Assembly (NCBI GenBank): GCA_016617855.1
Contig: JAECUM010000819.1
Span: 58,501 to 122,500, forward strand
Length of the DNA stretch: 64,000 bases
Origin: Megalonaias nervosa
Lineage: Eukaryota > Mollusca > Bivalvia > Unionida > Unionidae
Direction: 5' to 3'
Position 1 is the first letter of the stretch; every line of letters starts with the position of its first letter. Of this stretch, positions 14,303 through 42,017 are shown piece after piece. The notes below the pieces were generated by a model. That model made no database searches. It was not told where the DNA came from and saw nothing but the letters and a program-made list of their open reading frames with translations. Made by a program: the position numbers and the translations under genes.

Positions 14303-14634
14303 TCAGATCCTCGGAACTTAGATGCGAAAAATATTCCTCATGCTGTTTCCTGCGCGCCGAAAGAGGCAACACGTGGAGACGACCTTTATACCGTAGGAAT
14401 GCGTCCTGTGATGATTTTCCATCTCAAAATGTCTTATATGTTTTAAAGAGTGTGGTTTATACCAGAAATTTGCCCTTGGGCGTTAAGAATTTCATCCACT
14501 TTTCTTTGTCTTTGTTTTGTCTGCCATTTGGGGGTATATAGATTTACTAAAATGAGTTTTACGTGTACAGGTTTGTTATTTACTGTTTACAAGTTCCAGT
14601 GACTTTGATTTCTTTTACCTCAGCATCCCTGTCC

Positions 14635-17026: not shown

Positions 17027-17555
17027 GCGGTGATGATTGTGTTGTTATTATCATTGTTATTATTGTTGCTGTTGTTGTTGGTTCATAGTTTTAGTTGCTG
17101 TGTGTTAGTGGTTACAGTAGTAGTTGCTTCTAGTGCTGAGGTTATTATAGTTGTTAAAGACATAATGGTGGGAAATAATTATTATAATCAAGTGGCATCA
17201 TTTACCTGTGAGAATTGTATTGACTCCAATGAGAGAAAACAGATTAGCACATGTAACTTGGTCGTCTGAGTGATTACAACACGAATATTTTTAAAAAATT
17301 GTTAAATCTTCTATCAAAAACCAGGAAGAGGTGTTCATTTCACAGCAGAACGTCAAAACCTCAACTGAAGAACGGAGATTATTTTGTCTGTAAATAACAA
17401 TCCCTATAGGTAAAATGTTCAACAGCAACAACAAAATAAAGTGATTTGAACTATTGACCTCTCCACCTTTTCAGGAAACCGAGCTTCTCTACAATACACG
17501 TTTATGTCTGATAAAAAATGCAATAAAAATATTTTCATTCCATAATATACTTCAC

Positions 17556-17712
17556 CTAATTCTGTTACACACTTCTCGCAACAGCCGCAAGTTGTCCTGA
17601 CTATGATTCCATTGCATGACATTATATTGGGGCAAGTAACAGTTTCACAGTAATTAGGACATATATAGAACCCTTGAACCGTCGCTACTATCGCGAGTAT
17701 TAGCCAAGTCAT
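17556..17712 (-). CDS. IGFBP-like secreted protein A, exon 1
   Basis: Encodes a signal peptide and the first half of a cysteine-rich domain. The likely start is the ATG at 17,712 (MTWLILAIVATVQG, a typical signal peptide), with in-frame alternatives upstream at 17,730 and 17,757. The mature part contains CPNYCETVTCPNIMSCNG, then TCGCCEKC, which is the IGFBP N-terminal pattern with the CGCC core. The exon ends in phase 1 at TTA G|GTGAAG. The paralogous exon 1 kb upstream ends at exactly the homologous base. The natural partner is the exon at 12,611-12,718. The product would be extracellular. IGFBP-domain assignment rests on cysteine spacing, and hormone binding is not implied. Confidence 0.7.
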
Positions 17713-17920
17713 CTTCGATTTGTTCGTCATCAGGAGACGGGGGCTGTCTTTCAGCATTTTTGCAACGGAAAATCCAGGTAAACCATATAGACTTGGAATG
17801 TCTTTCAGAATATTTGTAACTGAGAATCCAGGTAATCAGCTGATAGGCGCTCCTTTTCTTCTCATAAGTGCCGATGACGTTAGTAGGGAAGATAAAAATT
17901 AGGTGAAATTTGATCACACA

Positions 17921-18111: not shown

Positions 18112-18643
18112 CTAAAATGATATACTTGCAACCATTCCAGATTAAATAATAACATTTTATAGATAGAAATAATTAAGTTTTTGACCAAAATTATCCTGCC
18201 TTGATGCATTTTAAATTTATTTTATGGCAAGCATTACTTTTGTATCAATGAATATTAAGCGCGTGACTGAATTTTCATTTGTAAAAAGCAGTTTTAAAGG
18301 AAGAAAAAAACTTTCTACGCTGTTTAATGCAACCGATTCTCGTATCTTCTTATATCTGTGCAAGAGCTAGCATTATATTCTAAAAAAGGAGTATCAAACA
18401 CACTAGAACCCAATCTTGAGAGCTAGAGATTAAAGAAATTCTTTCAGTGTGAACAGAATGTACGCTGCATTAAAAAGGCATTGATAAAAACATTGAAATA
18501 TTTAGCAGTGATAAATAAATTAGAATTTTATCAAATATCAATAAAACACTGGTTTTAAAAATATGAAATTTTCACATTAATCAGTGTTTTGTTAATCTCT
18601 TTTCGTCCTGAATGGGTTATCAATCTAATGCATGAATTCTTAC

Positions 18644-18806
18644 TTATAACGGTGGCACAAATGTCACAACATCCACAGAATCCCTTCTGAAGAACACCAT
18701 TGCAGGTGGAAACATCTGGGCAGTCAACACTATTACAATAGTTCGGTGGGCATACAATGGCCTGCGTGTAGACCAGAATGGCTGCGAATAACAAAAATTG
18801 AAACAT
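18644..18806 (-). CDS. IGFBP-like secreted protein B, exon 1
   Basis: Paralogue of the exon at 17,556-17,712. It starts at 18,806 with a hydrophobic signal peptide (MFQFLLFAAILVYTQA) and continues CPPNYCNSVDCPDVSTCNG, then FCGCCDIC. It ends in phase 1 at ATA A|GTAAGA, the same position relative to the last cysteines as exon 1A. The two exons share the cysteine frame and NYC/SC-NG motifs but differ elsewhere, so they are old duplicates rather than an assembly repeat. They may be two genes in tandem or two alternative first exons for the exon at 12,611. Confidence 0.7.
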
Positions 18807-19197
18807 TCTGTATAAACGTTGTACAATGTAAACGGTAAGAAAATACAAGTTTGAGTGTAAAAAAAGTATCAACTGTTGATCTGCTACCAATTAAACCAGG
18901 TTATATATTGGCACTTAACCCATGGGATGTTCGAGATAAGCATATCTAGACGTCACGAGACCAATATTACTCATGCCAGGATGGGTAGTTTCTTAGATAA
19001 ATTAATACCGTACCTATGGTGGCAGAACTTTCCGTATGTGAATTTTTCAGACAATGTCATATGTTTATCTAACATTCAATAGGAGAGGCTAGAGCAAGGT
19101 GATAGTATGAGAATGAGTTTTGTTTGGGACATATTTAAATTGTAACAAATCTGTAAATGTAAATTTCATTGCAGCAGTATATATGCCATTTTTATTG

Positions 19198-26431: not shown

Positions 26432-26617
26432 AGCAGTAGGGAGGGTGAACAGTCCACTTTTTGTAGAGCCTTTATTTTTGAAAAATAAGGGTTCCTACAA
26501 GGGTTAAAAAAGATTATGTTTGAAACAAAGGGACTACGAACAATAGAGCCTTTATTTTTGAAAAATGGAACCAAAAAAAAAATCACATACATGTGGTCGC
26601 ACCCTTCCTGCTGCTGT
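26432..26617 (+). repeat. Left terminal inverted repeat
   Basis: 186 bp, about 93 percent identical to the reverse complement of 41,833-42,017. It starts AGCAGTAGGGAGGGTG and ends CACCCTTCCTGCTGCTGT in inverted form, so the TIR is itself flanked by inverted copies of its end. The word AGAGCCTTTATTTTTGAAAA occurs twice inside it as a direct repeat (near 26,465 and 26,543). Confidence 0.92.
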
Positions 26618-27250
26618 ATTTCTGAATAAAAATAAACAACAACTATGATGGTCGGTCTACCATTCCACGGGGTCCTTCATTGCCAATAAAGCCTTTACCA
26701 TAAGGTCCTAAGAGTCCTTTTTTTAATTTTTTTTTTATTTGGTAAAGGCCTTTCTTATGGCCCACAGGCACTCTTTCATTGGTTAAGACCTGTCTTGTGG
26801 TCCACAGGCACCTTATTGAGACTTTTTTTGTCTAGCGGACATTCTTTCTGAATGTCCCTATGGACATTCTTTCTGAATGTCCCTATGTGGGTACCCTTCA
26901 GTGAGGTCACAAGGTCACGAGCTCACATCATCCTGTTGTTTATTTTAGGGGCGCAAGCGCATAGACCCCCAGCAAATTTAATTTATGTAACCCGCCCCCC
27001 CAAATCAAACCTCGGGGTAAGTGCAAAACTACACTCGACTCGCCACGTTGTTTGACGTTGGCGATGGGGACAGGAGTTTGCTTGCGCCCCCAATTATTAA
27101 AAAAAATGGCATCCTAACGCCGCCCCCGACATATGTCCGGTACGGGGAATCGAACCACGGAACTCGAGTATGAGAGCCAGACGCGCTACCACTGCACCAT
27201 GAGCTCCAGTTATACATATATGTTTCAAAAATAAATATATAGCTATCTTA
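26618..27250. other. Left non-coding arm with small repeats and tRNA-like head
   Basis: Holds a ~48-bp direct duplication (GGCCCACAGGCAC/GGTCCACAGGCACC, 26,740-26,815), a 25-bp tandem pair (GGACATTCTTTCTGAATGTC at 26,837 and 26,862), and an inverted pair GGGGCGCAAGC (26,948-26,958) with GCTTGCGCCCC (27,080-27,090). It ends in the tRNA-like segment listed next. No gene. Confidence 0.6.
26940..27206 (-). mobile_element. tRNA-Met-like SINE or tRNA pseudogene
   Basis: Minus-strand head at 27,206-27,135 with a D-arm region GTGCAGTGGTAGCGC, a loop with CTCTCATA resembling an elongator tRNA-Met (CAT) anticodon loop, and a B box GGTTCGATTCC. The acceptor arms do not pair, so it is not a working tRNA. 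It reads as a SINE head, and the ~190 bp downstream on the same strand carries the GGGGCGCAAGC inverted pair. It probably inserted into the element. Confidence 0.5.
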
Positions 27251-27251
27251 A

Positions 27252-27731
27252 CCTTGACTCAGTCACCTTGACGTTGTCAACGATGATAAGTATATACTAT
27301 CAAAATATTTTTCTGATTCTGAATAAAATCTGCAATTTTACATATTTCTGACGTTTTTGCCTTGGTTAAAATATTATATTTTCAAGCCTTTTGACACAGT
27401 CAAGAATTTTATCAAGGCAGAACTGTGTTAGTAATATGCGTTGGATCGATATTAATCTGGTTCCTTACGCCTATGTTGAAGTCTGAACAAAAAAAAAATC
27501 GATAATGACTATATTTCACCGCACGGCTTATGTGAAATATCTATAGCGTGGTTCGTCGTGATTTTATCCTTGACAACATCAAGAAATTCAGATTTTTGTG
27601 CTTGATATCATATGAAATAGGTAGATTCTTCAGACTTTAGTGTTTGAGGGATACGGAGCTGGGAAATCGAAGTCAAAGAAGAACTATGCACCGTTTTTCA
27701 AGACTACGCTATATCCTTGACAATGTCAAGG
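27252..27731. promoter_or_regulatory. Array of TTGAC-N3-GTCAA dyads
   Basis: At least four short palindromes of one type lie in 480 bp of non-coding sequence: TTGACGTTGTCAA (27,268-27,280), TTGACACAGTCAA (27,391-27,403), CTTGACAACATCAAG (27,569-27,583) and CCTTGACAATGTCAAGG (27,715-27,731, a perfect 17-mer). A weaker one is TGACTCAGTCA near 27,256. They look like repeated sites for a dimeric DNA-binding protein. Function is inferred only. Confidence 0.5.
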
Positions 27732-27944
27732 GGGAAATAACTGTTTAATTACTCTATCGTTGTGACAGGGTTATTTGACCGCTGAACGCATCAAGGACCA
27801 AACATTTTATCAATACCTATACGATACCTCGACCTAGGATCATGTAAATTTATTGTTATAAAACCAAACGGGGTAGCTTGTGCTTTTTAAAAGAAATTTT
27901 TAAATTTAATCATGTCCATATCCCCTGAACACCAAGTTTGATGA

Positions 27945-28457
27945 CTATTTCGCAGCGTATGTGTATCCATTAAACACAACTAAAATATTACAGTTATCTC
28001 TGATCACTTTTGGAATTTGTGGATACCGCTGGGTAACATAAATCACGTCTGTGTTTTTATGTCTGCCTCTGGAAAATATCCGGGCAGGATTTGATTGTTT
28101 ATCCAGCATCAATTCATCGTATATTACAAGATTGTTAATAAATCCGTCAAGGTCGTCTACGGATGGGGCTTCATCAATATCGGTAATAAAATCAATAATA
28201 TTGTTACCGTTTTCATTAAACGACTTTGCATTTTCATTAAAATCCTTAAGTACTTCATAGCATCGCTGATCATCTACGGATGGAGCTACTAAATATAATT
28301 TATCCCACTTGAGCCATCTCATTATCAAATTAAGCAATAATTGTGTTTTGCCTGATCCAGATGGACCTATTATGATTGCCCTAATAGAACTTGGCAATGC
28401 TGGGTGATGCTTGACTGGTTCTTGTTTTCGTGTCGCTGAAAAGTCAATTATATCCAT
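27945..28457 (-). CDS. Genome-packaging ATPase (A32/FtsK-HerA type)
   Basis: 170 codons from the ATG at 28,457. It has Walker A GPSGSGKTQ (residues 31-39), Walker B-like NNLVIYDELM, and the downstream strand IYVTQRYPQIP leading to NCNILVVF, as in the DNA-packaging ATPases of Polintons, virophages and poxviruses (A32). The enzyme would drive DNA into preformed capsids. The family usually runs to 200-250 residues. Here a TAG ends it soon after the last core strand, so the C-terminus may be lost. The upstream in-frame extension to 28,703 crosses the opposing PLA2 gene and is not likely to be used. Its start is only 13 bp from the divergent start at 28,471. Confidence 0.85.
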   Translation of the reverse strand: MDIIDFSATRKQEPVKHHPALPSSIRAIIIGPSGSGKTQLLLNLIMRWLKWDKLYLVAPSVDDQRCYEVLKDFNENAKSFNENGNNIIDFITDIDEAPSVDDLDGFINNLVIYDELMLDKQSNPARIFSRGRHKNTDVIYVTQRYPQIPKVIRDNCNILVVFNGYTYAAK

Positions 28458-28470
28458 GATAATAAATAGT

Positions 28471-28973
28471 ATGTATTTATATTGTGTTAGATGCAAGGCA
28501 ACCACCCCCACCACTGGATTAACAACAACAACAAAAATAAAAAGCGTGAACTCACAGGTAAGTGTGAAAAATGTGGTACAAAAAAAATACAAATTTATTT
28601 CGTCTAGCACAAAAACAGGAGGTGATATCGCTGCTTCGTTGGGAAAGTTACCAGGGGTTCCGTGGGCGAAGTATCCCGGGGGAAAACATCTACCCGGATA
28701 CAATTATTGTGGTCCTGGAACTCGACTTGATATTCCACTTGATATCAAAATCAACCAAAACCAGGAGAATACCCAATAAATAGTATTGATCAAGCGTGTC
28801 ATATTCATGATGTCGCGTATAAGAGTAATGATTTACAACAAAGACATCTCGCAGATGTAAAATTGATTCATGCGTTAAATTCTATAAAGAATAAATCTCT
28901 CAGAGAAAAACTCGCTAGTTTTCTAGTAAAAACTGCTATGAAAGGTAAAATAATGCTAGGGGCTGGTAATTAA
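28471..28973 (+). pseudogene. Zinc-ribbon plus phospholipase A2-like virion protein, frameshifted
   Basis: Begins with a zinc-ribbon half (YCVRCK in frame 1). The second CxxC pair (CEKC, at 28,563-28,574) is in another frame next to an A8 run. It then returns to frame 1 for a basic linker and the PLA2 calcium-loop-like YNYCGPG (28,699-28,719), and shifts again for the catalytic-type ACHIHDVAY motif (28,794-28,820). It ends at TAA 28,971. At least three indels separate the parts. The zinc ribbon resembles DUF5679, and the PLA2 part resembles parvoviral VP1 and adintovirus PLA2 domains, which help virions leave endosomes. The breaks may be true decay or homopolymer errors. Confidence 0.7.
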
Positions 28974-28990
28974 TTATAATGATTATTATA

Positions 28991-29962
28991 ATGGAGTCCA
29001 TTTATTATAGCCCAAAAGGATATCGGAAGGGCAGAGCAGCGATTAGTAAACTCGCTACAGCAGCAAAAGTCTCACGTGCTGTTGCTGCAGCGTGGTTATC
29101 ACGACAAGCAATATGGCAAATATATCTACCACCACCTAAAAGAATTCAGCACGCGTATTTTGATGTCAGCGTTCCCATTGAAGTTCATCAAGCAGATATT
29201 TTGTTTTTACCACATGATACCATTAAAACACGTGGACGTCAATCATGCACATACAAATACACGTTAACTGTTGCTGACGTTGCAAGTAGATATAAAGAAG
29301 CGGAACCATTATCAACAAAAACAACATCTGAAGTTGCATCTGCGTTTAAATGAATTTATCAGCGAGGACCATTACGATGGCCACAATTATTACAGGTTGA
29401 TCCTGGCAAAGAATTTCTCGGTGAAGTATCATCGCTGATGAAGCAACATAATGTCAAAATCAGACGAGGACACACTACAATTCATCGTGATCAGGCAATA
29501 GTTGAAAGATTTAATCGAACACTCGCTGAGCGGTTATTTGGATACCAGTATGCAAAGGAAATAATTCAGAGCGACATGAGATCTCGTGAATGGGTTGCAA
29601 GATTACCGAGTGTGATAGCTGCGTTAAATAATGAGATTACTCGTTCAATTTCTATGAGACCGATTGATGCGATTACGGAAAAATATATAATACCTGGGAA
29701 CAAAATCATACAATCTCAACCAGTATTAGGCAATGTGACTATAAGATATCTATATGAACCTGGTGAACTCGAAGGGGGTAAAAAAAGAGCAACTGATCCT
29801 ATCTGGAGTGTGACTACACATAAAATTTCTAGCGTGGTTAGATCCACGGGTAGACCCGCAATCTACAGACTGGATTCAACTGCTCCTCAGCGTGGATTTG
29901 TACGTGAACAATTACAAGTAATTCCTGAAGACACACAATTACCACCGCGTTCACTTTTGTAA
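28991..29962 (+). pseudogene. Retroviral-type integrase (rve), one in-frame stop
   Basis: Reads 28,991-29,962 in a single frame broken only by TGA at 29,351-29,353. The N-terminal region (~50 residues) is helical and basic. The DDE catalytic core has HQADILFLP (Asp codon 29,195), VDPGKEF (Asp 29,399) and IVERFNRTL (Glu 29,504), which gives 34 residues between the second Asp and the Glu. A C-terminal chromo/SH3-like part (YLYEPGELEGGKKR ... PAIYRLDS) follows. It would insert the element into host DNA by acting on the terminal repeats. The stop codon probably inactivates it unless read through. The start at 28,991 is preferred, with an upstream ATG at 28,979 also in frame. Confidence 0.88.
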
Positions 29963-31354
29963 ATTGGAACCCCGACGTCGATTGCATTCAATACATTTCA
30001 ATATGACATTATCACGTGTATGACCAAGATCACTATTAATTCTATCCACGGTAAATTGTCTTGGATTATTACTCGAATACTTCCACAACATGTGACAATT
30101 ACAAATTACACAACGATTATTCTGTTGTTGTTTTAGCGTCATAATAAATTCAACATCGATATCAAAATCACGATTATTTTTTTTATCGCATCGTTTATAA
30201 CTGGATAATTTTTTTCTTATTACTTTAACACTAACAGTTTGATTATTATTTTCTGTGGAGTCTATGACAACTCTGTGCAGTTGAGATATTCTCCTGACTC
30301 TAGATACTGCGAGATAAACTAAATTTGACCACTCGATACTTTCATCGACAATCCAGATATTTGTATCAGTGATAGCTAGTCCTTGTGACGAGTGAATCAT
30401 TATGGCATATCCCAATTTCCACGGTGAGTTATTCATACTCAACGCGCTTTCAACAACATCAACATCAACTAAAACAATATCATTTAACACAAGATTCTGT
30501 TTTTCATTTGATCCTGGAATTTCAACTTCAGCCTTCTGTCGTCGAGTATCTGCTGGGCGATAACACAATGGCACAAGTAGATTTGAGAATTTATCTTTGT
30601 GTAACATAAATAATTTCTCCTATAATTCATCTCGAATTATTTTTCTACTCGCAACTATTAAATCATTTGGTGTCCACAGATTCCAGAAATCATCGATGAG
30701 AGTTTCTGGAATTATTTCACGCGCTATCTCACATTGTATTCTATCTGGTTGTAGTCTGATTAATCTTTTAAATTCTTTCAGAGGTTCATCAATAGCTCTA
30801 TAATCATCATTTGTTTCTTCATAATAATCCACAAATGATTTTATCCACTCATGTGGAGATTGACCGACGAAAGGTGGTGGTTTACCATGATCGCCGCACA
30901 TAATTACCGCAGTATTTTTCGTTAATAACCAATTAAGAAATATTCTTAGTGTTTCTAGCGACACCGTACAAATCTCATCCCAGATGATGATTTTGGGAAT
31001 ATATTTCTCACCCATTCGCTCAGGTGTCCACGTATCTCCACACCATCTGAAGAAACTATGGTATGTACATGATTTTATTCCCCGTTGTTTTATTTCTCTT
31101 GCTAGTCTGTGTGTAGATGTCAATACTATCATATCTGAACTCTGACGAAATAACTCAATGGCACGTGTTGTTTTACCAGAACCTCCAGGTCCATTGAGAT
31201 AAATGGTTTTATGTCTGGCCACGGGATCAAATACAGATGGTGCTGTAGATACTGTTATTTGATTGTCATTACCGTAGTATATTTCTTTGATATCAACGTC
31301 TGCTGATTCAGAATAATGAGTATACTTTCGTGTTTTTTTTTCCATGATCCCCAT
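29951..31354 (-). pseudogene. SF1 helicase (RecD/Pif1-like) with C-terminal HNH domain, one in-frame stop
   Basis: One frame from 31,354 to 29,951, broken by a TAG at 30,620-30,622. Helicase motifs in order: Walker A LNGPGGSGKTTRAIELF (31,195-31,145), the Ia region VLTSTHRLA, Walker B PKIIIWDEIC, motif III VIMCGDHGKPPPF, then after the stop motif V IMIHSSQG and motif VI VYLAVSRV. An HNH nuclease-like tail follows: RCVICNCHM ... FTVDRINSD ... CIECNRR with two CxxC zinc pairs. The 5' end overlaps the polymerase frame in another phase across an A9 run (31,334-31,343). Polymerase and helicase may therefore be one protein. It would unwind the template in protein-primed replication. Confidence 0.8.
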
Positions 31355-33359
31355 TCATTACTACCGAGTAACGGTTTTACCAAATCCATGTACGCGCTAT
31401 TTATATAAAATGAATCTGTAGCAACTCTGACAGCGTAACGAGGAAATCTATTTTTGATCGATAATAAATTTATATAAACGTAAGCGAGCATATATGATCT
31501 TAAATGGGTAAATTGCGGTGACTCACCATCGATATAACTCACGATTGTACCTAATTTAATTCCGTCTGATGAATAAGCATTGCTTCTGCTTATCAACGTT
31601 CCTTTGTTCGTTGTGTCAGTAATTATAAAATCTAACTCAGCATCATCCATGATTAATCTTGCACAATGTCGTTTTATGATCATACGAACCACCTTGAGTA
31701 AATTTACCAATTATTTTTCTACCTAGATCTTTTGCAAATTTATTTGCATAATCAATTTTATCACAATCCTCATCCCCTGACTCTCTCAGAGAATATTTCT
31801 TTTGCTGTGGTAACCAAACTTGTTTCTGCGGATGATATGATAGAATAGCTTCACTTACGCTCAACGACACCAAGATTCCAGTATCAAGCATGTATCGTAA
31901 TAGCACTATTGGAACCCAATATTTTTCTGCAAAATGTCTCCCAAACCACGCATAAACGATCGGATGAAGATTATTACGAAACTTCAATGATTTTACACAA
32001 GCGAATCTAGTTAAATCAAAATCAGGTAATGGCCCATTTATCGCAACTCTTGTCATTTCATGTATCGGATGTCCGAATATTTTGAAATATTCAGAACAGT
32101 CTCCGTATCCAAGAAAACTCCCAGGATAACACGCAACCATATCAACCGATATAACTTTACGATGATCGTATTTGGTATTCCATAATCCGCCATGTCCATA
32201 TTCGACACAACTATGCTGAATATCTTCAAGGAATTCTGATCGTGTTGGCTTCCATGAATTTTTCTCTTGAGCGAAGTGAGCAGCAACTGATGGAACTGTA
32301 AAACAATTATTCAATAATCGTTCAACTTCAACATCATCAGCATTATATTTCAATGCAAGATTCTTCATTTCTTCATGGAGAGATTCTTTACGGTAAATCT
32401 CTCCATTAGGTTTTACAAATTGATCATAATTCACAGATTCTGAACTCTGAAATAACCAAACAGATACAGGACCATTCTTACTGACATTTCTGATAGCATC
32501 GAATATATAATCGTGATAAAATTTAACTATTCTATCTCGTGGAAATATTGTTACAGCATTAGTCTATGCATGTGCATTATGATCAATGATTGTTATTGGA
32601 GCTCCTCTTGATGTGTATTATATAAAATCTCTCCGGTTAGTGTTCTTACTGTTATTGGAAATTTTAATTTTTTTTCTAGTTCAGCGACATCCTTAGTAGA
32701 TGCTCCAGTATTCTTAACTGTTTCTGCCCATGTATTTATTTTTTACGTCTTATATCTGTTAAGCCATTCCAACGTATTGCTTTTTTGAAGTGTTCCATAA
32801 CTCGTTCAGCTACACAATTTAACCGTGATGTAGTCACGGAAAATTTCATCGGTTTAAGATTTTCAACGCTGGGTTTATCATTTAACGGATATATCGTATA
32901 AAGAACTGCGGTTACAGGATATGCTCGTTCATAATACGATTTATCAATACCAGTTAATATACCTGGCTTGGATTTTTTATCCAATATAACAGTTTTTCAA
33001 GATTGTGTTACTCTGACAGGTTCACGTTTATCACGAATAATCTAAATATCATGATCCGTCTGCACAATAAATTTGATCAAAATAATATATCGCTGATTAT
33101 CAAGGTAATTGATAATACTTCTTCCTCGTTCGTCATTTATTCTTGTGTCGACGGTATCTCTGATTTTAAATGTCGACCAAGTATGAGTAGCATCATCGTC
33201 GTAAAATTCCTTCTTAGCTTCACGAATACGATCGGTTATATCATCAGTCATCAAGGCTAGGTCTTACATTGAGTATTTAGATTTGGATTTCAGTGGTTTA
33301 TCAAGATCAAATCTTGCACTAGAGGGTTCGATTACAGACAATCTCTTAAATTCCTCCAT
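31255..33359 (-). pseudogene. Family B DNA polymerase (protein-primed type), multiply broken
   Basis: Likely start ATG 33,359, just left of the divergent gene at 33,409. The N-terminal third is in frame 2 with stops at 33,264, 33,042, near 33,000 and 32,736, so the exonuclease part is poorly readable. The polymerase core is then open from 32,434 to 31,643 with motif A VISVDMVACYPGSFLGYG and motif B KFAKDLGRKIIGKFTQGG. It shifts frame near 31,650-31,710 to motif C RVATDSFYI, whose aspartate pair is reduced to ATDS, as in some family members. A further shift at the A9 run at 31,334 leads into the helicase. It is the replicative enzyme of the element, inactive in this copy if the breaks are real. 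Confidence 0.82.
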
Positions 33360-33408
33360 TATAATAATTAAGACAGGATGTGTTTAATTAGATTTTTATT
33401 CATAATAT

Positions 33409-33729
33409 ATGATACAAACAAATAACAAATGCAACTGGTTAATGATCGGGTTTTCATTTCGGTGCAATAAACCATGCGTAAAAGAATTCTGCGTATACCA
33501 CAGGCAGAGTTTTCGTAGAGGAAGCGCAGGACCAAACCTTGTGTTCGATGTGGTGTTGGAGTCAGAGGAAAAACTCAATTATGCGTGCAATGTGGCGGTA
33601 AAAAATATAGAGAGATGAAGCGGTATTACAATGAGGAATATGGACTATCGGCATCTCCGTCGAAAACCATAGAGGATTATTTAGTTAGATTTCAGAATAA
33701 TCATTTAGAAGAATGCTGTTATATATAAA
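33409..33729 (+). pseudogene. Small zinc-ribbon protein, frameshifted
   Basis: Starts at ATG 33,409 with a cysteine cluster (RCNKPCVKEFC). After residue ~35 the better reading moves to another frame with a clean CxxC...CxxC ribbon (PCVRCGVGVRG, LCVQCGGKKY) and ends at TAA near 33,727. One indel is needed. The function is not recognised. Zinc ribbons of this sort are common in virus-like elements. It starts 50 bp from the polymerase start on the opposite strand, so the gap is a likely two-way promoter. Confidence 0.5.
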
Positions 33730-33737
33730 TTGAGCAG

Positions 33738-34233
33738 AATGAGTTTGTGAAACATCCCATCATTAATAATTACGAGGCATCTCGTAGTGGCATTAGCAGA
33801 CACTGTCAACGAAAAAACCAGTTGGTACTGACAATGTTATTGGTTACCTCACTTTTCGTGTTAGGAAAGATAAAACATATTACTCTCATAGATTGATCTA
33901 CGAGTGTTTTAATGGTCCGATCGAAGAAGGATTTGTAATTGATCACATCAATTCAGACACGAAAGATAATTCTTTAAATAATTTGCGTGTTGTTAGACAA
34001 GTCAGAATTGTAAATCAGGAAGAATCGGTTATAACAATAAATATCCAAGATCAGTTATATCCACAAACACAGAAACAGGTGAAGAAATAATCTTCCCATC
34101 GATGATTGCAGCTAGTAAGTATTTTGATATTGTCATGCCTTCAGTACGTTTTGTTGCAAATAATTTAAGAAGATCGGTATTTTCGAAAAAAAACAATCAG
34201 AAGATTAAATTTAGATACACTGCTAGCAATTAA
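33738..34233 (+). pseudogene. HNH homing endonuclease with NUMOD-like modules, frameshifted
   Basis: Three pieces in three frames. NEFVKHPIINNYEASRSG (33,738 on) resembles the NUMOD4 lead-in. RLIYECFNGPIEEGF and VIDHINSDTKDNSLNNLR (33,890-33,995) form the HNH core. SVISTNTETGEEIIFPS (34,050-34,100), followed by a helix-turn-helix-like stretch to TAA 34,231, resembles NUMOD1. At least two indels. These domains are known from phage, organelle and giant-virus homing endonucleases. It is a second, separate HNH gene besides the one fused to the helicase and suggests a selfish passenger in the element. Confidence 0.65.
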
Positions 34234-34238
34234 TAATA

Positions 34239-34480
34239 ATGAACACAAATTTTATTATTTATGATGTTGATAAAATCAGTATTGCTGATAAATTACCTCC
34301 GTGGACTAAAGTCAAAATTACTGAAAGAGATGATATTACTTATATAGAATTCATTGACAAAATTTACGCAGGAAAGGGTTTTCACATCGATCATGTTCGA
34401 TCATGCCTGTTTCACCTGATGAACGTGCGCGCCGACGATTACAAGAAAAATTCAGAGTGAGAATACAAAAGAAAGAATAA
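34239..34480 (+). pseudogene. Small protein of unknown function, one frameshift
   Basis: Starts at ATG 34,239, 6 bp after the stop of the HNH gene. The first ~55 codons are acidic and mixed (FIIYDVDKISIADKLPPW ... GKGFHIDHV). After the repeated TTTCACATCGATCATGTTCG region the better reading moves to another frame that gives a strongly basic tail (PDERARRRLQEKF) ending at TAA 34,478. Not recognised. Position and size resemble the small accessory ORFs of other Polintons. Confidence 0.4.
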
Positions 34481-34719
34481 TCCATGGATTATAAATTAAT
34501 TCTTGTCTTCTGAAATTGTCAGAAATATATTTATTCAGAAAAATCATGAATTCATTGAGATTTGTTTATTTAGTCGTGCAACTACCCCATCAAAATCAAT
34601 GAATTTCGTCAGAATTCCTCAATTTCGGTCGTGTAATTACCCCATCAAAATTATTAAATTAATTCAGAAATAAATTAATTCAGAAAAATGAATTTATTTA
34701 AACAAATGACTTTTATATA
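34481..34719. promoter_or_regulatory. AT-rich spacer with a direct repeat
   Basis: Two copies, 55 bp apart, of GTCGTG(C/T)AA(C/T)TACCCCATC (34,573 and 34,628), plus repeated TTAATTCAGAAA words, directly upstream of the gene at 34,720. It may hold a promoter or replication signal, which is inference from the repetition. Confidence 0.4.
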
Positions 34720-35220
34720 ATGAATCATGAAAATATTAATGCTATTATTCCTGCTATTAAGCAGTTACAACACAGCGGTATAAAAATATCTGATGAGCTT
34801 GATCCTGAAAAAATAATGAGTGATTTTGAATCATTACAATTTCGAAAGTCAGAAAATAGATATACGCTGCCTTCCGATTATAGATTCATAAAGTTGATCC
34901 AGTAGGCGATGTTACAATCGCTGGCAGGAATCACGGATACGCAAGTGAAATTATTTGTTCCTCTTTCACGTCCAATGGAAAGGGTTAGGTCAGAGTTATC
35001 TCACGAATACGAAACGAAAAGACTTGTACACGCTTGTATAAAACAGCTGAGAGATATTATGTCGATGACGGAGTCATTGAACAAAGTTGCGGAAGAGTTA
35101 CTGGCTAAAGATAAGGACGAGTGTGACTCCGTTCATAATAGTGAAAGTGACTATAGTGACGTTGACAACGAAACCAATAGTGTCACCTGTAACGTTGTAC
35201 CAACTAAACAAGAAGGATAA
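34720..35220 (+). pseudogene. Unknown element protein with acidic tail, one in-frame stop
   Basis: A single frame of 167 codons broken by TAG at 34,903-34,905. The N-terminal half is helical (INAIIPAIKQLQHSGIKI). The second half has QVKLFVPLSRPMERVRSEL and a predicted coiled-coil-like stretch, then an acidic serine/aspartate-rich tail. I recognise no family. It converges on the candidate minor capsid gene, whose stop is 73 bp away. Confidence 0.5.
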
Positions 35221-35292
35221 TTCATTTCTGAGCCTGATAAAGTCATAGGTAAAAAAAATATTTATTTAATAGATTTTTTTGCTTGGTGTTTT

Positions 35293-36465
35293 CTACGAAC
35301 GCACATACAAATTTATATTTAACGACTCTGACCTGACATCGAGCAAGTGGCCAGACTGGGCAGTAAGTTTGAAATGTATCCGCGATAAGAATAGATTATG
35401 ACATTTTAGATAAACAACGTTGATTGGTTCTGATACAATCAAATCTCCTGGGTACACTTGAGGGGTAAATGAATACAGAATGTATTTTTGCTGGGCCTGG
35501 ATGGATTTTTCAGTGTCAACTTGATAACTATCGTCGATGACATCACACACTAGATTGACAGCAATCGTTGATGTGACATTGACGATACCCGGTGAAATGT
35601 GACGGTCTTCGTTGTATGGATCGTTATTGTATTTTAAGATGCTTAGTTGTGGAATTATTTTTGAAAAATAAACATCTATAATTTTTTCGTTTGGATAATT
35701 TAGCTCGCCACCAGTATAAGAACGATCATTAATTATATTTGGATCTGCGCTTAATAAATCCGATTTGACATGGTTTAGGTGTTTAGTGGATTCGATGATT
35801 TGTTGTTTTACATCATCGTCGTAAACATGTATTAGATATTTAAACAAACCAGGTAAAGTTTCGTATGTTTTGGAATATTCAGATTTTATTGCGCTAACGT
35901 CATGTAACTGATATTTTGGAATTCTCATATATTTGTTTTCGGTTGTCAAAAACTCATCTCGTCGTGGCTCTGGTGGACCAGAATAGGGTGGAACCTCAGG
36001 CCATCCTAGCACACTTCTAATCGAACTTTGATATATATCCACGGTATATTCCGGAGATAATATTTCAATGGCCGATGACAGCGTTGGTTCGTGAACAGTA
36101 ATGGTTATCTTTGATTCTTTTCCTGTGATGGATTTGATTCTGCGTTTGAATTCTTCATTGATCTGTTCTATTTCATAACTGCCCGTTGGAATACTGACTA
36201 CTTGCCAATCAGGAGTTCCATCGGGTTTATTTTTATTTGCAAATACTAATGAATTATTCGGTTGTAGTCCACCAAACGATTTTGACCTAATATTTGGCCA
36301 ATTATAATAAACCCGTAATTGCGCTAATGCAATTTCTTTTGCTGGAATTGCAGTTGGAAAATTAATATTGAACTCAGGATTAGTTGAACTCGCTGATATC
36401 ATCGTGGTTCTTACCGGAGCAGTATTAGTGACGATCTGTTGTAATAATTCCAATGACGTTGTCAT
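35293..36465 (-). CDS. Candidate minor capsid (penton-like) virion protein
   Basis: Intact 390-codon ORF, the longest in the element, starting at ATG 36,465. Recognisable family landmarks: LAQLRVYYNWPNIRS near the N-terminus, a PTGSYEIEQINEEF block (the usual GSY-x2-x-IN element), IRSVLGWPE, and a C-terminal domain with YSFTPQVYPGDLIVSEP and a beta-rich end. This conserved Polinton/adintovirus protein sits next to the capsid genes. I assign it tentatively to the minor capsid or penton role because of size, beta-rich C-terminus and context. A fold search is needed to choose between penton and fibre-type. Its stop-free state contrasts with the broken polymerase. Confidence 0.6.
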   Translation of the reverse strand: MTTSLELLQQIVTNTAPVRTTMISASSTNPEFNINFPTAIPAKEIALAQLRVYYNWPNIRSKSFGGLQPNNSLVFANKNKPDGTPDWQVVSIPTGSYEIEQINEEFKRRIKSITGKESKITITVHEPTLSSAIEILSPEYTVDIYQSSIRSVLGWPEVPPYSGPPEPRRDEFLTTENKYMRIPKYQLHDVSAIKSEYSKTYETLPGLFKYLIHVYDDDVKQQIIESTKHLNHVKSDLLSADPNIINDRSYTGGELNYPNEKIIDVYFSKIIPQLSILKYNNDPYNEDRHISPGIVNVTSTIAVNLVCDVIDDSYQVDTEKSIQAQQKYILYSFTPQVYPGDLIVSEPINVVYLKCHNLFLSRIHFKLTAQSGHLLDVRSESLNINLYVRS

Positions 36466-36473
36466 TATTATTT

Positions 36474-36965
36474 TTATTGTTGCTCTAAATTATTTATTTC
36501 TGTGACCGAATCACCCGTGGCATCGCTACGGTTAAATACTTCATTGTAGATCTTTATTATAATACTGAATTCTTCATCGGATATTATTCCATCCTTGAGC
36601 GACGAAGAAATCATCGACGATAATTTTGAATATGCTATAGTTGCAGTATGTAATTTCATCGTGTACTCGTTCAATTTTTCATTTGTGCACGTATTTATCT
36701 TTTTCGCGATAATATTGAATATTACAGCGATCGTGATTGACGATGAAACCGCGATTGTTACAACGGTCGGCGCTGTCATCGTCAGCGTTGATAATACTAA
36801 GCCGGTTCCAGCAACAATCGCGGAAACCGAATAAACGATGATATCAACGACAACTGCACGTCTACGATATTTCTTTATCTTTGCTGTATAGTCATCGATG
36901 ATGGTTTTTAGTTTATTCTGCCATGTTGTTACTTGATCGTATCTGTATCGCTGAACGTCTATCAT
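36474..36965 (-). CDS. Two-helix membrane protein of the element
   Basis: Intact 163-codon ORF from ATG 36,965, ending 8 bp before the start of the 390-codon gene. The N-terminus is basic and helical (residues 1-37). Two hydrophobic segments follow at about 38-62 (VVVDIIVYSVSAIVAGTGL) and 66-86 (PTVVTIAVSSSITIAVIF), then a long amphipathic helical tail containing SLKDGIISDEEF. Similar two-TM proteins are common in Polintons, and function is unknown. It may associate with membranes during assembly or exit. Confidence 0.6.
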   Translation of the reverse strand: MIDVQRYRYDQVTTWQNKLKTIIDDYTAKIKKYRRRAVVVDIIVYSVSAIVAGTGLVLSTLTMTAPTVVTIAVSSSITIAVIFNIIAKKINTCTNEKLNEYTMKLHTATIAYSKLSSMISSSLKDGIISDEEFSIIIKIYNEVFNRSDATGDSVTEINNLEQQ

Positions 36966-37079
36966 TATACTGTATTAAGTAATTAATTGAGATGTTTCAG
37001 CTACAAATTCCAGACACCACCAGTAAGACGCCGAGGTTTATTTTTTTTCAGATGATACCAGCATAAACGTTTATTCGGT

Positions 37080-37965
37080 ATCTTTATTTAATATAATAGA
37101 TACAGTCCCAGAAAAATGATCGGTTGAATGACGCCATAGATACGTGGTAAATATACTAAATTTTGCAGAACTAAATACGGACAAACTGTACACGCCAGTG
37201 ACCTCAGTGGTATGTTTGATAGTGTTATTTTGCTGTGTCCATGTTGTCCTGATGATACTGTGTATACGATATTGTTAATTTGTTTGTGTGGAATTTTAAT
37301 CAGATTGGATTTTTGACGATATTAGGAATTCCACCGACAATATCGGTGATTCTAGTATTTATATCTTTGAGATTTATGTCAACGGTTGGTGGACTTCCAA
37401 AAACTTCATTAATGGTGCTGTTTACGTTTATGTGGAAATTCAGAAGCAGTTGTGCTTTATTAGTAAAATCAGTTTTGAGTGTGGTCATTCCATCGTTGAT
37501 TGTAGCTAACGAAGTTGTCACTGGAATTTCCTTATCATCGACATATTTGTTTGTTGCAGCGTCGAAATTATCTGATGGTTCTCCTACGTTGGTAATTTTA
37601 TTATTGTTCATGTTGAGAGCGCCGTGCATTACATCGCCGGCTTTTAACACTCGTTCATTTATGCTATCTCGGATCGACGACGCAGTAACAACACTAGGAA
37701 CAAGTTTGCCCTCTTTGTCATATACAGCAACAAGACCTTCTCGCGGTAATCGATTACGAATAATAATATCGTTGATTGAAATATTACTCGTCTTCAATTT
37801 TCCTTCACGGTTTTGAAATATAACAAGTTCGATTGGATCAACGTTGGCAAGATTGAGCAGGTCAGATAACTCATCATTGATCTGCCGTGTTACTCGCTTG
37901 AGTAAATCCTCAACTGGTGCTTGTTGGGTTTTAGTTTCAGTTGATCTTCCTTAAATATCTACCAT
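37080..37965 (-). pseudogene. Fibre-like protein with phage tail-fibre motif, broken ends
   Basis: The gene probably starts at ATG 37,965 but meets TAA after four codons (37,951-37,953). The same frame is then open to 37,300. The middle carries LKAGDVMHGALNMNNNK followed by ITNVGEPSDNFDAATNKYVD, the repeat that marks phage tail-fibre and appendage proteins, then a coiled-coil-like stretch. After the stop at 37,300 the sequence to about 37,080 still reads as beta-strand-rich protein in other frames, which suggests a lost C-terminal knob. It is likely a receptor-binding spike. Confidence 0.6.
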
Positions 37966-37972
37966 TATATGA

Positions 37973-38383
37973 TTAGCGATTATTTAAAACAGAACCCGTA
38001 TATTCGTGTACAGCTTTACGAGGTAGTTTCGCTGATCTTCTTACAGCATCAAGTACTGCTAGTGTTTCACGGCCACATATCGGCGGGTCGGTTATTTTTT
38101 GTGTTGGTAGCGTTGAATACCAGATTGGAATACTCTGAAGTCTGTCAGTATATGTTAAAAATTCTTTTGGTGGTGCCAGTCCGTACGAATCGAAATAAAC
38201 AATACCACATGGATCAATTGCATATGCAACCCAGTGAGTGCCACGACCAGAGCTTTTATCGAGATTAATAATACCTGTTTCAATCAGATTTGGATTTTTC
38301 GGTAATTGATCACGCATAAAAACACCTCTGAAATTTTTTATATTTAGTTGCTTAGCATTATCGAGTAAATCAAAGTTAGACAT
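37973..38383 (-). CDS. Adenovirus-type maturation cysteine protease
   Basis: Intact 136-codon ORF from ATG 38,383. The catalytic triad fits the adenain/Ulp1 clan: His50 in GTHWVAY, Asp65 in YFDSYG and Cys103 in ICGRE, with Gln95 a candidate for the oxyanion hole. The N-terminal block (FRGVFMRDQLP) is typical of Polinton proteases. It would cleave precursor capsid and core proteins during virion maturation. It lies 8 bp from both neighbours in a tight minus-strand block with the core protein and major capsid genes. Confidence 0.88.
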   Translation of the reverse strand: MSNFDLLDNAKQLNIKNFRGVFMRDQLPKNPNLIETGIINLDKSSGRGTHWVAYAIDPCGIVYFDSYGLAPPKEFLTYTDRLQSIPIWYSTLPTQKITDPPICGRETLAVLDAVRRSAKLPRKAVHEYTGSVLNNR

Positions 38384-38391
38384 CGGGAAAA

Positions 38392-38799
38392 TCAGCGAGT
38401 CCCTGGAAGTCTTAATCCGCGTCCGTATCGAGACCCTGGAAGTCTCAGACCGTGACCTCTTCGTTTCCTTTTTTTAAATCCTTGTTCAGGAGCTTTTGCA
38501 ACAGCTGGAGCGGCAGCGGCTATTAATGCTGGGATAGCTGCAAGAAGTGGAAATATCCCACCAGTCTTAACGATGTCGCTGATAGCACCCGCAGAAAGAT
38601 TTACTCGTATACCTTTCTTTGATTGCTTAGCTTCATTGAAGTGCTTGAACTGGCGTTCTGTCAGAGATAATTTATTTTGGCCACCTGCGATTTGTTCTTG
38701 TTTTAATGATATTTTTGTTCCACATCGCTTCGCTGATGTTGACTGAAGTCTTTTAATTTGACTGGGAGTCAGACTGACACTAACGTGATGATATAGCAT
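38392..38799 (-). CDS. pVI/pX-like basic hydrophobic virion protein
   Basis: Intact 135-codon ORF from ATG 38,799. It carries a conserved Polinton pattern: SLTPSQIKRLQS at the start, an LSLTERQFKHFNEAKQSKKG block, a glycine-hydrophobic segment (TGGIFPLLAAIPALIAAAAP, residues ~79-98) and an arginine-rich tail with RKRRGHG and a duplicated RGLRLPG unit. The composition suggests a membrane-active or DNA-condensing minor capsid protein cut by the neighbouring protease. That role is inferred by analogy with adenovirus pVI and pX. Confidence 0.65.
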   Translation of the reverse strand: MLYHHVSVSLTPSQIKRLQSTSAKRCGTKISLKQEQIAGGQNKLSLTERQFKHFNEAKQSKKGIRVNLSAGAISDIVKTGGIFPLLAAIPALIAAAAPAVAKAPEQGFKKRKRRGHGLRLPGSRYGRGLRLPGTR

Positions 38800-38819
38800 T
38801 TATGATATATTTCTGACTT

Positions 38820-40171
38820 CTAAATTAACTCTTTCATATTTTCTACTGGAGCATCAACGACTCTCGTGCGACCACCAGCACCTTCAAGTAGCATTGTCTT
38901 ATCGCTGAGTATAACGGCGATTGCTCTGTAACTAGCAATAGCTCCTCGCGTCACACAAGCTCGAAAATATATGTCAACGACGGACTGTGTAAACAAATCC
39001 AAATGTTCCAGCGAAAAGTAATAAACCAGTATCAATATTTTGATCACGCACCATAAACGACATCAGTCGATGATATGCGCGCGCCACATGATTTTCTCGA
39101 AATTCAACAAAATATCCTCCGACGGTTCTTGATGTCCATTTATTCTCAATGAAACCTCGGAAACACCGAGTTTGTCAAATATCATTGTACTACGCGTTTG
39201 ATCATTTACTCGTGCAACATCTTGAAGCGCAACGAATATATGTCGCGGCGCAAAGATACCCTGTTGTGATGCTATCTGCCATGTAAATAAACCATTAATT
39301 GTGCTTTGAAAAGCATCTGTGCTTGTTGTTAACCATGATAGCGTCGACTTACCGCCGTTGTCCATGAAAGAAAGCAGCCGCTGTTCTTCAGGTATCGCTG
39401 GAGTCATTATTGGCATCCACAATGAAAGCTTTGTCAGAATTACCTTACTAGCATCACCGGCGGGTCGCCATATTGCATCATCGTCTGTTGCTTTTCGTAC
39501 GAGTACAATTGTATGTTTGGCTCCGAAAATAATTTTCTAACGTGTCTGCAGAATCCAAAAATATGTGATAGTGGAATCGCGCAAGAAAATCTTCTGCTTC
39601 CACCCTGCAACATTGCTCGACGTGATTTAAATCCTAAGTTGAAATCTGGATCGACATTAATAATCATACTTTGCACATCCGCGTTGGCATTTCTAGCAAG
39701 GTTCATTGGTCGTCCTATTTCATACTGGGTGTATTCAGGATGATCAGAAGTATCCTTGGTAAACATCATTGATGGACCAGCTGATCTTGAATACATGTAA
39801 TCGTCGCTGTATCTTGCAAGGCCAAGTATCGTCGTGACAACGTCAACATCTTTTTGAATCGATTCAATATTTCTTCCGTCGATCATGTACGTGGCGCTGT
39901 CGAACAACGCCATGATGCCATTATTAACAAAACCAACACTAATATCAGCTCCGTATTTAGTATTATCTGTTTTTAAAATTTCACCTTATACTTCAATAAA
40001 TGCTTCAGCGGGTAAGAAATATCTACTTGTATCTTGAACTTGTAATTCGATTCGTCCACGCTGATTTGGCTGTCGTGCGTCGTAAGAATAATATTGATAA
40101 TCACGCACAGACTCATCCTTGAGAACTGGCGCATCCATGTCAAATGCGGGATCAGGTACACGTTTGAACAT
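38820..40171 (-). pseudogene. Major capsid protein (double jelly roll), broken
   Basis: Read from ATG 40,171 in four pieces. An ochre stop at 39,986-39,988 lies in frame with the next piece (39,913-39,440). A frameshift follows between 39,440 and 39,422, and a TGA at 39,063-39,065 lies in frame with the last piece (39,047-38,820). Landmarks are the N-terminal PDPAFDMDAPVL, the ATYMIDGRNIESI strand region, the family hallmark AIPLSHIFGF, and WMPIMTPAIPEE with ISRHIFVALQ-like strands further on. Total length of about 450 codons is shorter than the 600 or so usual for the family, so there may also be deletions. It would form the capsid hexons. Confidence 0.8.
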
Positions 40172-40242
40172 ATTATGTTATTGGTCATCGTCAAGACCAC
40201 TTCCTGCCATCAGACTTGCTGCTACGTTTTTTTTCCTTTTCA

Positions 40243-40623
40243 TCAGCTAACTGCTAGTTTTTGATTTGCGGCTTGATTTATTATTTTACTAACACTTGCA
40301 GGCATCACTGCAGTGCTGGGTAATTTTACTGGTGGGGGTCGGACTATTTGTGGTCTGCGTACTAATCGTAATAATCTATCCTTGATTGCAGAAAATGCTT
40401 TACTAGTAGCGTCACCAGCAGCGCTAATACCTTTTTCACGAATAACGTCAATAGCTTTCATTCCTAGTTACTTTGCGATTGGTATTGCTTTGGGGGCTAT
40501 TCTCCTAAATAAACCCTGAATAACATCACCAAATCCATCTCCGTAAAATGTCTTGCATACAGGTAATCTTGAATTTACCACCCTGTCCATAGTTGGTCCA
40601 CGTTGAGCAACAAGTATGATCAT
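40243..40623 (-). pseudogene. Small basic virion protein, one in-frame stop
   Basis: Frame from ATG 40,623 to TGA-less end at 40,243, broken once by TAA at 40,468-40,470. The N-terminal half has YGDGFGDVIQGLFRRIAPK, the glycine/aromatic amphipathic motif of a conserved Polinton minor protein. The second half has a helical REKGISAAGDATSKAF segment and a proline-rich basic stretch (RRPQIVRPPPVKLP). It lies between the major capsid gene and the coiled-coil gene in the minus-strand virion block. Function is unknown, with a likely internal virion component by context. Confidence 0.5.
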
Positions 40624-40649
40624 CTTATTATAGTAATTATATCTGTTTA

Positions 40650-41805
40650 ATCACTGTGATAATCATCGGCGATTTCATTAATGAGGGACCGATATACGCC
40701 AACGTCCATAATACGACCTGTAATAATCGTTGACAAATTGATGACATTTCGTTGATAATTTCATGAGAATTATTACCAGCTCATTTTCCACCGATTAAAA
40801 TTTCTAATCTATCTACGTCGGCAAAGATATTACCGGGACAAGTAACAAGGCCACTTCCTCGAGTATTAATACCACTTCCAGTTGCACCTTTATCGGGACC
40901 TGATAAATCAAGGATACCTGGGGATCCTTCTGGGGAATAAAACGCTTCATCACTGGATGGTGAAGAAGATATTTTTTCTCGTGGTTGTGGTGATAATAAT
41001 TGTTATTGTTGTTGTCTTGTTGATGATAGTCGTTGTCGTCGTTGTTGTGTTCGTTGTTCTAGTTCTTCTTGTCGTAGTTGTGCTCGCTGTTTTGGCGATA
41101 GCGATGATAATTGTTGTTGTTGTTGCATTATTTTTCGTTGTTGTCGTATTTGTTATTGTTGTTCTGGTGGTAATTGTATAAACGAAATATATTCATCTAT
41201 TGCATGAATATATTCCATATATCTTGGATCGCTGTTTCGAGCTTGATCAACGTTATGGTATATGCGAAATATCCATTTGTACCAAGTTTCGCGACTCACA
41301 AGATCATCAGCATATTCAGGTTTTAAAAATTGTTTTCGATTATCATAACCTTTCACAGCACTCGCAGCTAATTGTCTTACATTTTTGGCCTGTCTGATAA
41401 CATTAATGACATCTTCGGTAATTTATCGGACAGATTAGCCCTGACTCGTGCTTGTTCTGGTTCTTGTTGAGTATCACCTTCCGCCTGGTCTGCATCCTCA
41501 GGTATTTCCGGGGTTGGCATCGTAGTAGCTATTTTCTTCGGAAGTTCTCGTAAAAGTTTTTTTGTCTTCTTAGTTCTCTCCGCTATTTTTTCAGTTGATT
41601 CAGCGGTCTTTTTCAACACGGGAAGAATACCTTCAGTTGTCTTCGTGATAGGTTTAAATAATTGCTCTGCGGATTCTGTAAATTCTTCTTGTGTTTGTTG
41701 ACGCTCTTGTAATTTTTGCTTAACACTATTATGAAGCGGAAGATATTTCTGTATCGCTTCTAGTCGCTCTCGAGCTAATCTTGCTGAACGAGCTTCACCA
41801 ATCAT
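40650..41805 (-). pseudogene. Coiled-coil, glutamine-rich virion protein, several breaks
   Basis: Start ATG 41,805, 28 bp inside the right TIR. The first ~136 codons are intact: a basic helix (SARLARERLEAIQ), long coiled-coil-like KTTEGILPVLKKTAES and an acidic Glu/Gln stretch. It then shifts frame near 41,390 to a second block (YADDLVSRETWYKWIFRIYH, 41,356-41,160). A Q-rich tract follows in which CAA codons have become TAA at least twice (near 41,153 and 40,998), then a C-terminal block with SPEGSPGILDLSG. It ends near 40,650-40,790. The TTG/TGT-rich look of the plus strand here is this poly-Gln coding tract. No known family. Confidence 0.5.
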
Positions 41806-41832
41806 TATTGATATAATAATCTTTTTAAATCG

Positions 41833-42017
41833 ACAGCAGCAGGGAGGGTGCAACCACATGTATGTGATTTTTTTTGGTTCCATTTTTAAAAAATAAAGGC
41901 TCCATTGTTCGTAGTCCCTTTGTTTCAAACATCTTTTTTTTTTAGCCATTGTAGGAACCCTTATTTTTAAAAAATAAAGGCTCTACGAAAAGTGGTCTGT
42001 TCACCCTCCCTGCTGCT
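41833..42017 (-). repeat. Right terminal inverted repeat
   Basis: Inverted partner of 26,432-26,617 with about 13 differences, several in A/T runs. It ends CCCTCCCTGCTGCT, and its inner edge is AGCAGCAGGGAGGGTG, again an inverted copy of its own outer end. Confidence 0.92.

Follow-up and report, generated by a model that had tools for sequence, protein, structure and literature searches.

Polintons/Mavericks and adintoviruses (Polintoviricetes, Eupolintoviridae) combine terminal inverted repeats (TIRs), an RVE-like integrase, an A32/FtsK packaging ATPase, an adenain-like protease and a double-jelly-roll (DJR) major capsid protein (MCP) with a full protein-primed family B DNA polymerase (pPolB), whose motif C reads DTD and which carries no fused helicase. 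The abstract of PMC8097293 states that Maverick virions have not been observed, and the same paper gives vertebrate Mavericks 6-bp target-site duplications (TSDs) and an AGTAGT end motif. In the Tlr1-like pPolB-S1H replicase of the Tlr1 element, polinton-like viruses (PLVs) and transpovirons, the PolB palm is followed by a superfamily 1 (SF1) helicase (PMC11071308, PMC4028283), and the sections of PMC11071308 on this enzyme describe the loss of the first Asp of motif C and a C-terminal HNH or GIY-YIG domain. Tlr1 shares the RVE integrase, ATPase and capsid genes (PMC11071308, PMC4028283); a protease is given as absent from Tlr in the account of PMC4028283 and as found in no PLV in that of PMC4642659. 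The polymerase-helicase fusion has been used to argue how PLVs, Tlr1 and transpovirons originated from polintons (PMC11071308). Here we analyze 64,000 nucleotides of the Megalonaias nervosa genome (assembly GCA_016617855.1, contig JAECUM010000819.1, positions 58,501 to 122,500 of the forward strand; hereafter the window), in which a 15.6-kb element occupies positions 26432..42017. This block is very probably a decayed germline copy of a linear double-stranded DNA virus of the polinton supergroup (Preplasmiviricota), combining a polinton-type morphogenesis set and an RVE integrase with a Tlr1-type replicase, its host most likely being a freshwater mussel.

A first-pass annotation of the window had described a near-complete Polinton/adinto-like element; the genome of an animal does indeed contain here a near-complete integrated virus flanked by its own TIRs, and the gene set and TIRs agree with that name. 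The name fails on the replicase, whose fused helicase had been missed, and on the length of the target-site duplication. The replicase is spread over six open frames on the minus strand (33263-29951) and is interrupted; its pieces are:

32736..33263, minus strand: N-terminal replicase pieces in two frames, without a credible family match
31643..32563, minus strand: part of the replicase palm that holds motif A (SVDMVACYPGSF) and the motif B region (IGKFTQG)
31255..31710, minus strand: replicase palm with motif C (RVATDSFYIN), matching no Pfam family
30620..31354, minus strand: first part of an SF1 (Pif1/RecD-like) helicase (AAA_19 2.5e-8, AAA_30 7.3e-8, both above the cut-off)
29951..30619, minus strand: putative C-terminal part of the replicase, comprising the last part of the SF1 helicase plus an HNH-like stretch, read from relatives

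The palm and helicase frames of the window overlap but are broken, whereas in uninterrupted relatives the palm and a C-terminal SF1 helicase form one polypeptide; among 390 candidates, 107 were helicase relatives. In the relatives P0017, P0019, P0020 and P0063 the helicase is continuous with the HNH-like part, where an HNH pattern was seen by eye and the HNH profile scored 0.024 in P0063, below the cut-off. Motif C reads ATDS in the window and ATDS, TTDS or AIDT in the aligned relatives that hold the motif, the first Asp of DTD being replaced. Because stop-free relatives both join palm to helicase and lack DTD, neither feature is a product of decay in the window copy. From these alignments we read the replicase as one of the Tlr1 type: its PolB palm, in which ATD stands for motif C, is joined to an SF1 helicase and an HNH-like end.

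The remaining evidence on this protein is less specific. About 370 codons upstream of motif A, where an exonuclease, a terminal protein or a vOTU domain might lie, are broken and matched no credible family; LNCVAERV in the N-terminal pieces is presumably a possible vOTU cysteine motif. The structure model of relative P0089 found phi29 polymerase as its best, though weak, match, with adintovirus PolB third among viral matches; VIA-align of this model listed no SF1 helicase chain, which is uninformative, as Pfam does cover that part. A PDB sequence search with the helicase profile returned nothing usable (PIF1 helicase only at E 0.72), and the palm pieces of the window gave no match to PF03175, the ordinary PolB family, at E up to 1.

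The adintovirus PolB match, together with the RVE-like integrase, ATPase, protease, DJR MCP and TIRs, would also be expected of an ordinary polinton or adintovirus (Eupolintoviridae) in which a neighbouring gene of its own encoded the helicase and motif C had simply mutated. Elements with ordinary PolB do exist in the same genome: PF03175 was found in at least 75 places (best 6.6e-18) and in none of 14 control genomes. Each of the 75 places has an exonuclease-side and a palm-side match, 74 palm-side matches are stop-free, and open frames reach 708-1408 codons; compared in pairs, ten palm pieces are at least 95.6% identical (median 98.3%), 3 of 45 pairs being fully so. Since these copies are stop-free and nearly identical, this polinton-type family looks young and largely unbroken beside the old Tlr1-type one. 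DNA next to one copy encodes a BIR (inhibitor-of-apoptosis) domain (1.2e-21) and also a piece of an A32-like ATPase, the latter at 0.0017 and so below the cut-off. None of the 75 places is that of the window, which shows little alone as only 75 candidates were scored, and its palm pieces have no significant likeness to this family (blastp against the ten pieces, E 1.2 or worse). Given this, the stop-free fused relatives, and duplications of 5 rather than 6 bp, an ordinary polinton is very unlikely.

The Tlr1-type replicase thus stands beside genes of polinton character. The core genes for integration and morphogenesis are:

27945..28457, minus strand: A32-like packaging ATPase, 170 codons (Pox_A32 1.2e-10, above the cut-off)
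28408..28973, plus strand: phospholipase A2 (PLA2)-like domain in two frames (Phospholip_A2_4)
28970..29962, plus strand: candidate RVE-type integrase in two frames (rve 0.013, below the cut-off, on 28979-29353)
35293..36465, minus strand: 390-aa structural protein, candidate penton or minor capsid protein, its centre (about aa 156-280) exchanged between copies
37300..37950, minus strand: phage-tail-fibre-like open frame of 216 codons (phrog_11338 tail fiber 9.1e-7 and others)
37973..38383, minus strand: candidate adenain-like maturation protease, 136 codons (Peptidase_C5 0.0093, below the cut-off)
38820..39985, minus strand: DJR MCP, broken, in at least two overlapping frames (DJR-like_dom 1.1e-5, just under the cut-off)

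The five genes named by the first-pass annotation (polymerase, integrase, ATPase, protease and MCP) could all be recognised, but the polymerase, integrase and MCP, like the PLA2-like gene, are interrupted, and profile support is uneven: the ATPase and helicase lie above the cut-off, the MCP just under it, the integrase and protease below. In the MCP, the relative P0140 reaches 1.9e-23, and open copies begin about 190 nucleotides (nt) further upstream than the window frame. The Pox_A32 profile was matched only to position 156 of 242, and the ATPase of the window is perhaps truncated at its C-terminus. Phospholip_A2_4 scored 7e-6 on 28743-28973 (above the cut-off) and 8.9e-4 on 28408-28779 (below). 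The second part of the integrase (29354-29962), where a chromodomain might be sought, matched no family; ERFNRTL was read directly there. The protease candidate contains H, D, Q and C by eye, which we take to be the adenain pattern. Some of these profiles being weak, we read as a putative morphogenesis set the DJR MCP, A32 ATPase, adenain-like protease, fibre-like protein, PLA2-like domain and 390-aa candidate penton.

For the fibre-like frame no ATG start was found. Its alignment seemingly ended beyond 37686, and hypervariability was considered and rejected: since the gene is present in all 12 further copies examined (one with a deletion, one at 43% amino acid identity), the break is an edge effect of locus ends.

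Compared with Tlr1-like elements, the mussel element has an animal host, PLA2-like and fibre-like proteins and a protease candidate; compared with polintons and adintoviruses, it differs in replicase architecture, duplication length and gene order. From the right, the minus strand carries the 190-aa open reading frame (ORF), MCP, 135-aa protein, protease, fibre-like protein, 163-aa protein, 390-aa protein, replicase and ATPase; the plus strand carries the PLA2-like gene, integrase, free HNH endonuclease and 104-codon frame. An SF1 helicase is also fused to pPolB in OmPLV, an endogenous PLV of Oxyrrhis marina; its helicase is N-terminal and its exonuclease kept, as described in PMC12721341, whereas the helicase of the mussel element is C-terminal. 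None of the titles and passages met in searches of the open-licence literature describes a Tlr1-type replicase for an animal element.

The element is bounded by two repeats:

26432..26621, plus strand: left TIR, 190 bp, a long imperfect palindrome (AGCAGTAGGGAGGGTG ... CACCCTTCCTGCTGCT)
41827..42017, minus strand: right TIR, 191 bp, with a hairpin fold at 41830-42017

Aligned over 193 columns, the two TIRs agree in 175; with gap columns removed, this is 175 of 188. The outer edge AGCAGCAGGGAGGGTG recurs, sometimes slightly altered, at the 30 repeat loci that were read, so the limits first proposed for the element are right; the end motif AGCAGC parallels the doubled trinucleotide at the ends of Mavericks. 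The hairpin at 41830-42017 has a z score of -5.08 (equalled in 0 of 200 shuffles), and both 16-base palindrome arms were found in 30 of 30 TIR loci (error limits 3 and 4); no compensatory changes in the arms were seen by eye. Extra TIR repeat units apparently stand in a row at L015, L016 and L034.

Target-site duplications were surveyed in nine copies, including the window, with both ends read; C10752, C29171 and C6285 were left out for a second TIR missing from the stretch fetched, and C52400 for having the same flank at both edges. Perfect 5-bp duplications occur in six of the nine (TAGGT, TCACT, TAAAT, GCTTT, CTTCT and CGTTT, the last read by eye after a shifted alignment end), the duplication at C24546 matches in 4 of 5 bases, and none was found at C29372 or the window copy; the length is thus 5 bp and not the 6 bp of vertebrate Mavericks. 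The TIRs of the window might stem from different insertions, or one end might have recombined, as the missing duplication and the largest TIR difference of the nine copies would allow. We consider this unlikely: six of the eight other copies span 15.2-16.2 kb from TIR to TIR, similar to the 15.6 kb of the window (the others 13.3 and 5.1 kb), and around the MCP the alignment extends from about 40085 to 38486 in all 24 of the other loci. An end of the single window insertion was possibly eroded or recombined. The same-flank edges at G000:C52400:122650-127250 are inverted, an inverted duplication or an assembly palindrome, and the 5.1-kb element between TIRs at G000:C24546:8499-13635 is probably a deletion derivative.

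The first-pass annotation had also suggested a recent arrival from intact ORFs and had proposed a search for further copies. Such copies are numerous in the assembly (2.19 Gb in 54,709 contigs): the MCP occurs in at least 40 places on 40 contigs, where each search of the genome scored 40 candidates and copy numbers are therefore lower bounds. The 39 other MCP places are 88-96% and the 39 other palm places 93-96% identical to the window. Recent arrival did not hold. The Kimura two-parameter (K2P) distance between TIRs is 1.6-7.3% in the nine copies, the window having the highest; MCP K2P over 300 pairs from the 25 best of 40 loci runs from 3.0% through a median of 5.5% to 7.2%; and the MCP tree is star-like, with short inner branches and no pair below 3%. 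The MCP frame is open (461-469 codons) in 5 of 25 loci, the window not among them, and dN/dS among the five is 0.42-0.73. The ORFs of 390, 170, 163, 136 and 135 codons do exist, the 170-codon one being the ATPase; at 3.6% neutral change, however, about 2.3 stops are expected in a 390-codon frame, so that chance may leave an individual frame open and such frames are weak evidence of recency. Taken together, TIR differences, broken genes and star-like MCP divergence mark the family as an old burst that is now decaying, with the limit that younger groups may have been missed where copies were picked for resembling the window.

The structural 390-aa gene was compared in 26 segments (the window and 25 loci), 22 of which had both ends; L078, L079, L081 and L082 were skipped for a missing end, and the first part of L076 was shortened. 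Its centre, 375-686 nt long, falls into six clusters at 75% identity (14, 3, 2, 1, 1 and 1 copies), frequencies that are meaningless because the 14 copies of the window's type were picked for matching its gene. Between these 14 and the eight others, centre identity is 0.40-0.53, and its mean of 0.47 is close to the 0.49 of shuffled sequence; mean identity is 0.85 over the first 155 codons and 0.79 over the last 110. In their MCPs the eight are 94-95% identical to the window. The centre of the 390-aa protein is thus exchanged among copies whose capsid genes are about 94% alike. A sliding-window comparison of 14 copies found with the window's gene gave no hot centre, an artefact of choosing copies for likeness to the window's gene; MCP-picked copies show the exchange. 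Three observations weigh against a single clean cassette: where the centre starts, 93 nt are 77% identical between the window and L083, four other centre types are mutually related (0.59-0.74), and the last 110 codons too diverge more between the two sets of types.

Whether the exchange took place among infecting strains or by conversion among dead copies bears on its meaning. MCP distance does not track the six centre types (within 0.0533, between 0.0524 in 13 loci; 1189 of 2000 shuffles as large), as conversion would allow. With the four related types lumped, no shuffle being run for this grouping, it is smaller within (0.0467) than between types (0.0551), as lineages predict. Relatives of the 390-aa protein in databases likewise have conserved ends and a centre variable in sequence and length, a variation that would already have existed in replicating virus; this is not decisive. 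We treat conversion as a possible explanation, of roughly one chance in three.

The 390-aa protein is a candidate penton, and its exchanged centre may be a receptor-binding head. Its AlphaFold model (pLDDT 43) is of too low quality to be searched for the single jelly roll of a penton; family searches gave no match, and PDB sequence searches with the MCP and 390-aa profiles returned nothing usable. Adintovirus pentons with inserted domains, as presented in PMC11071296, offer a parallel to a candidate penton with a variable insert; the mussel variation differs in separating members of a single family within the same genome.

The other frames of the element are:

33797..34233, plus strand: free-standing HNH homing endonuclease with a NUMOD1-like stretch (HNH_3 3.3e-15; NUMOD1 0.0087, below the cut-off)
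34906..35220, plus strand: 104-codon frame without assignment
36474..36965, minus strand: 163-aa protein with a hydrophobic stretch, open reading frame
38392..38799, minus strand: 135-aa protein, hydrophobic and then with a strongly basic tail, open reading frame
41377..41949, minus strand: 190-aa charged protein overlapping the right TIR, no credible family

The homing endonuclease lies between the replicase and the structural genes, and the 163-aa gene is 92-95% identical at the nucleotide level in the three other copies examined. IAGG|Q in the 135-aa protein is, we assume, a possible adenain site; the count of such sites (7 against 2.9 in shuffles) is too weak to use. Translations of 27032-27258, inside the element, resemble what we take to be tRNA-derived short interspersed elements, possibly a later insertion. 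Outside it lie tandem arrays at 4560-5232 (72 bp), 14625-15419 (62 bp) and 6561-7031 (50 bp), a pair of similar minus-strand frames (17419-17835 and 18555-18890) that are cysteine-rich, exon-like and perhaps of a host gene family, and an open frame of 239 codons (54452-55171) that by eye resembles the reverse transcriptase of a long interspersed element (LINE).

The annotated relatives of the 390-aa protein and MCP come from Potamilus streckersoni and Sinanodonta woodiana, from which we infer a freshwater mussel host. Helicase relatives include one from Sinanodonta and others labelled as a sea slug (Elysia), two fungi (Paraglomus, Cetraspora) and clam-symbiont bins. Those filed under Candidatus Thiodiazotropha (P0018, P0024, P0029-P0031 and others) stand on contigs of about 1-4 kb and are probably DNA of the clam host that was binned with the bacteria; the genome contig collection, when scanned, gave no relatives of this type, and scans of the viral contig collection found no relatives of the window element. 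One might suspect that the contigs carry a protist PLV and belong to a protist or another organism associated with the animal, as descriptions of Tlr1-type replicases concern protist viruses and transpovirons and some helicase relatives are labelled as arbuscular fungi and clam symbionts. Such a source is extremely improbable for an element that lies inside a 172-kb contig of the assembly, adjoined by microsatellites and the LINE-like frame, with 40 MCP places on as many contigs and named relatives in two annotated mussel genomes.

In the proposed cycle, the integrase would insert the linear genome through a 5-bp staggered cut, and the replicase, probably protein-primed, would start from the ends of the TIRs, unwinding ahead with its own helicase. 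The ATPase would package the DNA into icosahedral capsids, while protease, PLA2 and fibre or penton may serve maturation and entry. Tentatively, and at somewhat less than even odds, molluscs may host an infectious, integrating double-stranded DNA virus lineage intermediate between polintons and the Tlr1/transpoviron branch, in which virion and protease genes of the polinton type accompany a PolB-helicase of the Tlr1 type. It would live alongside ordinary polintons, and under pressure from the host its strains would swap the head of a virion-surface protein as a cassette. The Tlr1-type replicases known so far come mainly from viruses that infect single-celled organisms, and the mussel family adds an animal case; with integrase and protease candidates beside a polymerase-helicase fusion, it would be an intermediate for testing the order of events. 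An exchanged centre in one structural protein, with capsid genes alike, is the trace that infection with surface diversification could leave, an idea that is testable in mussel genomes.

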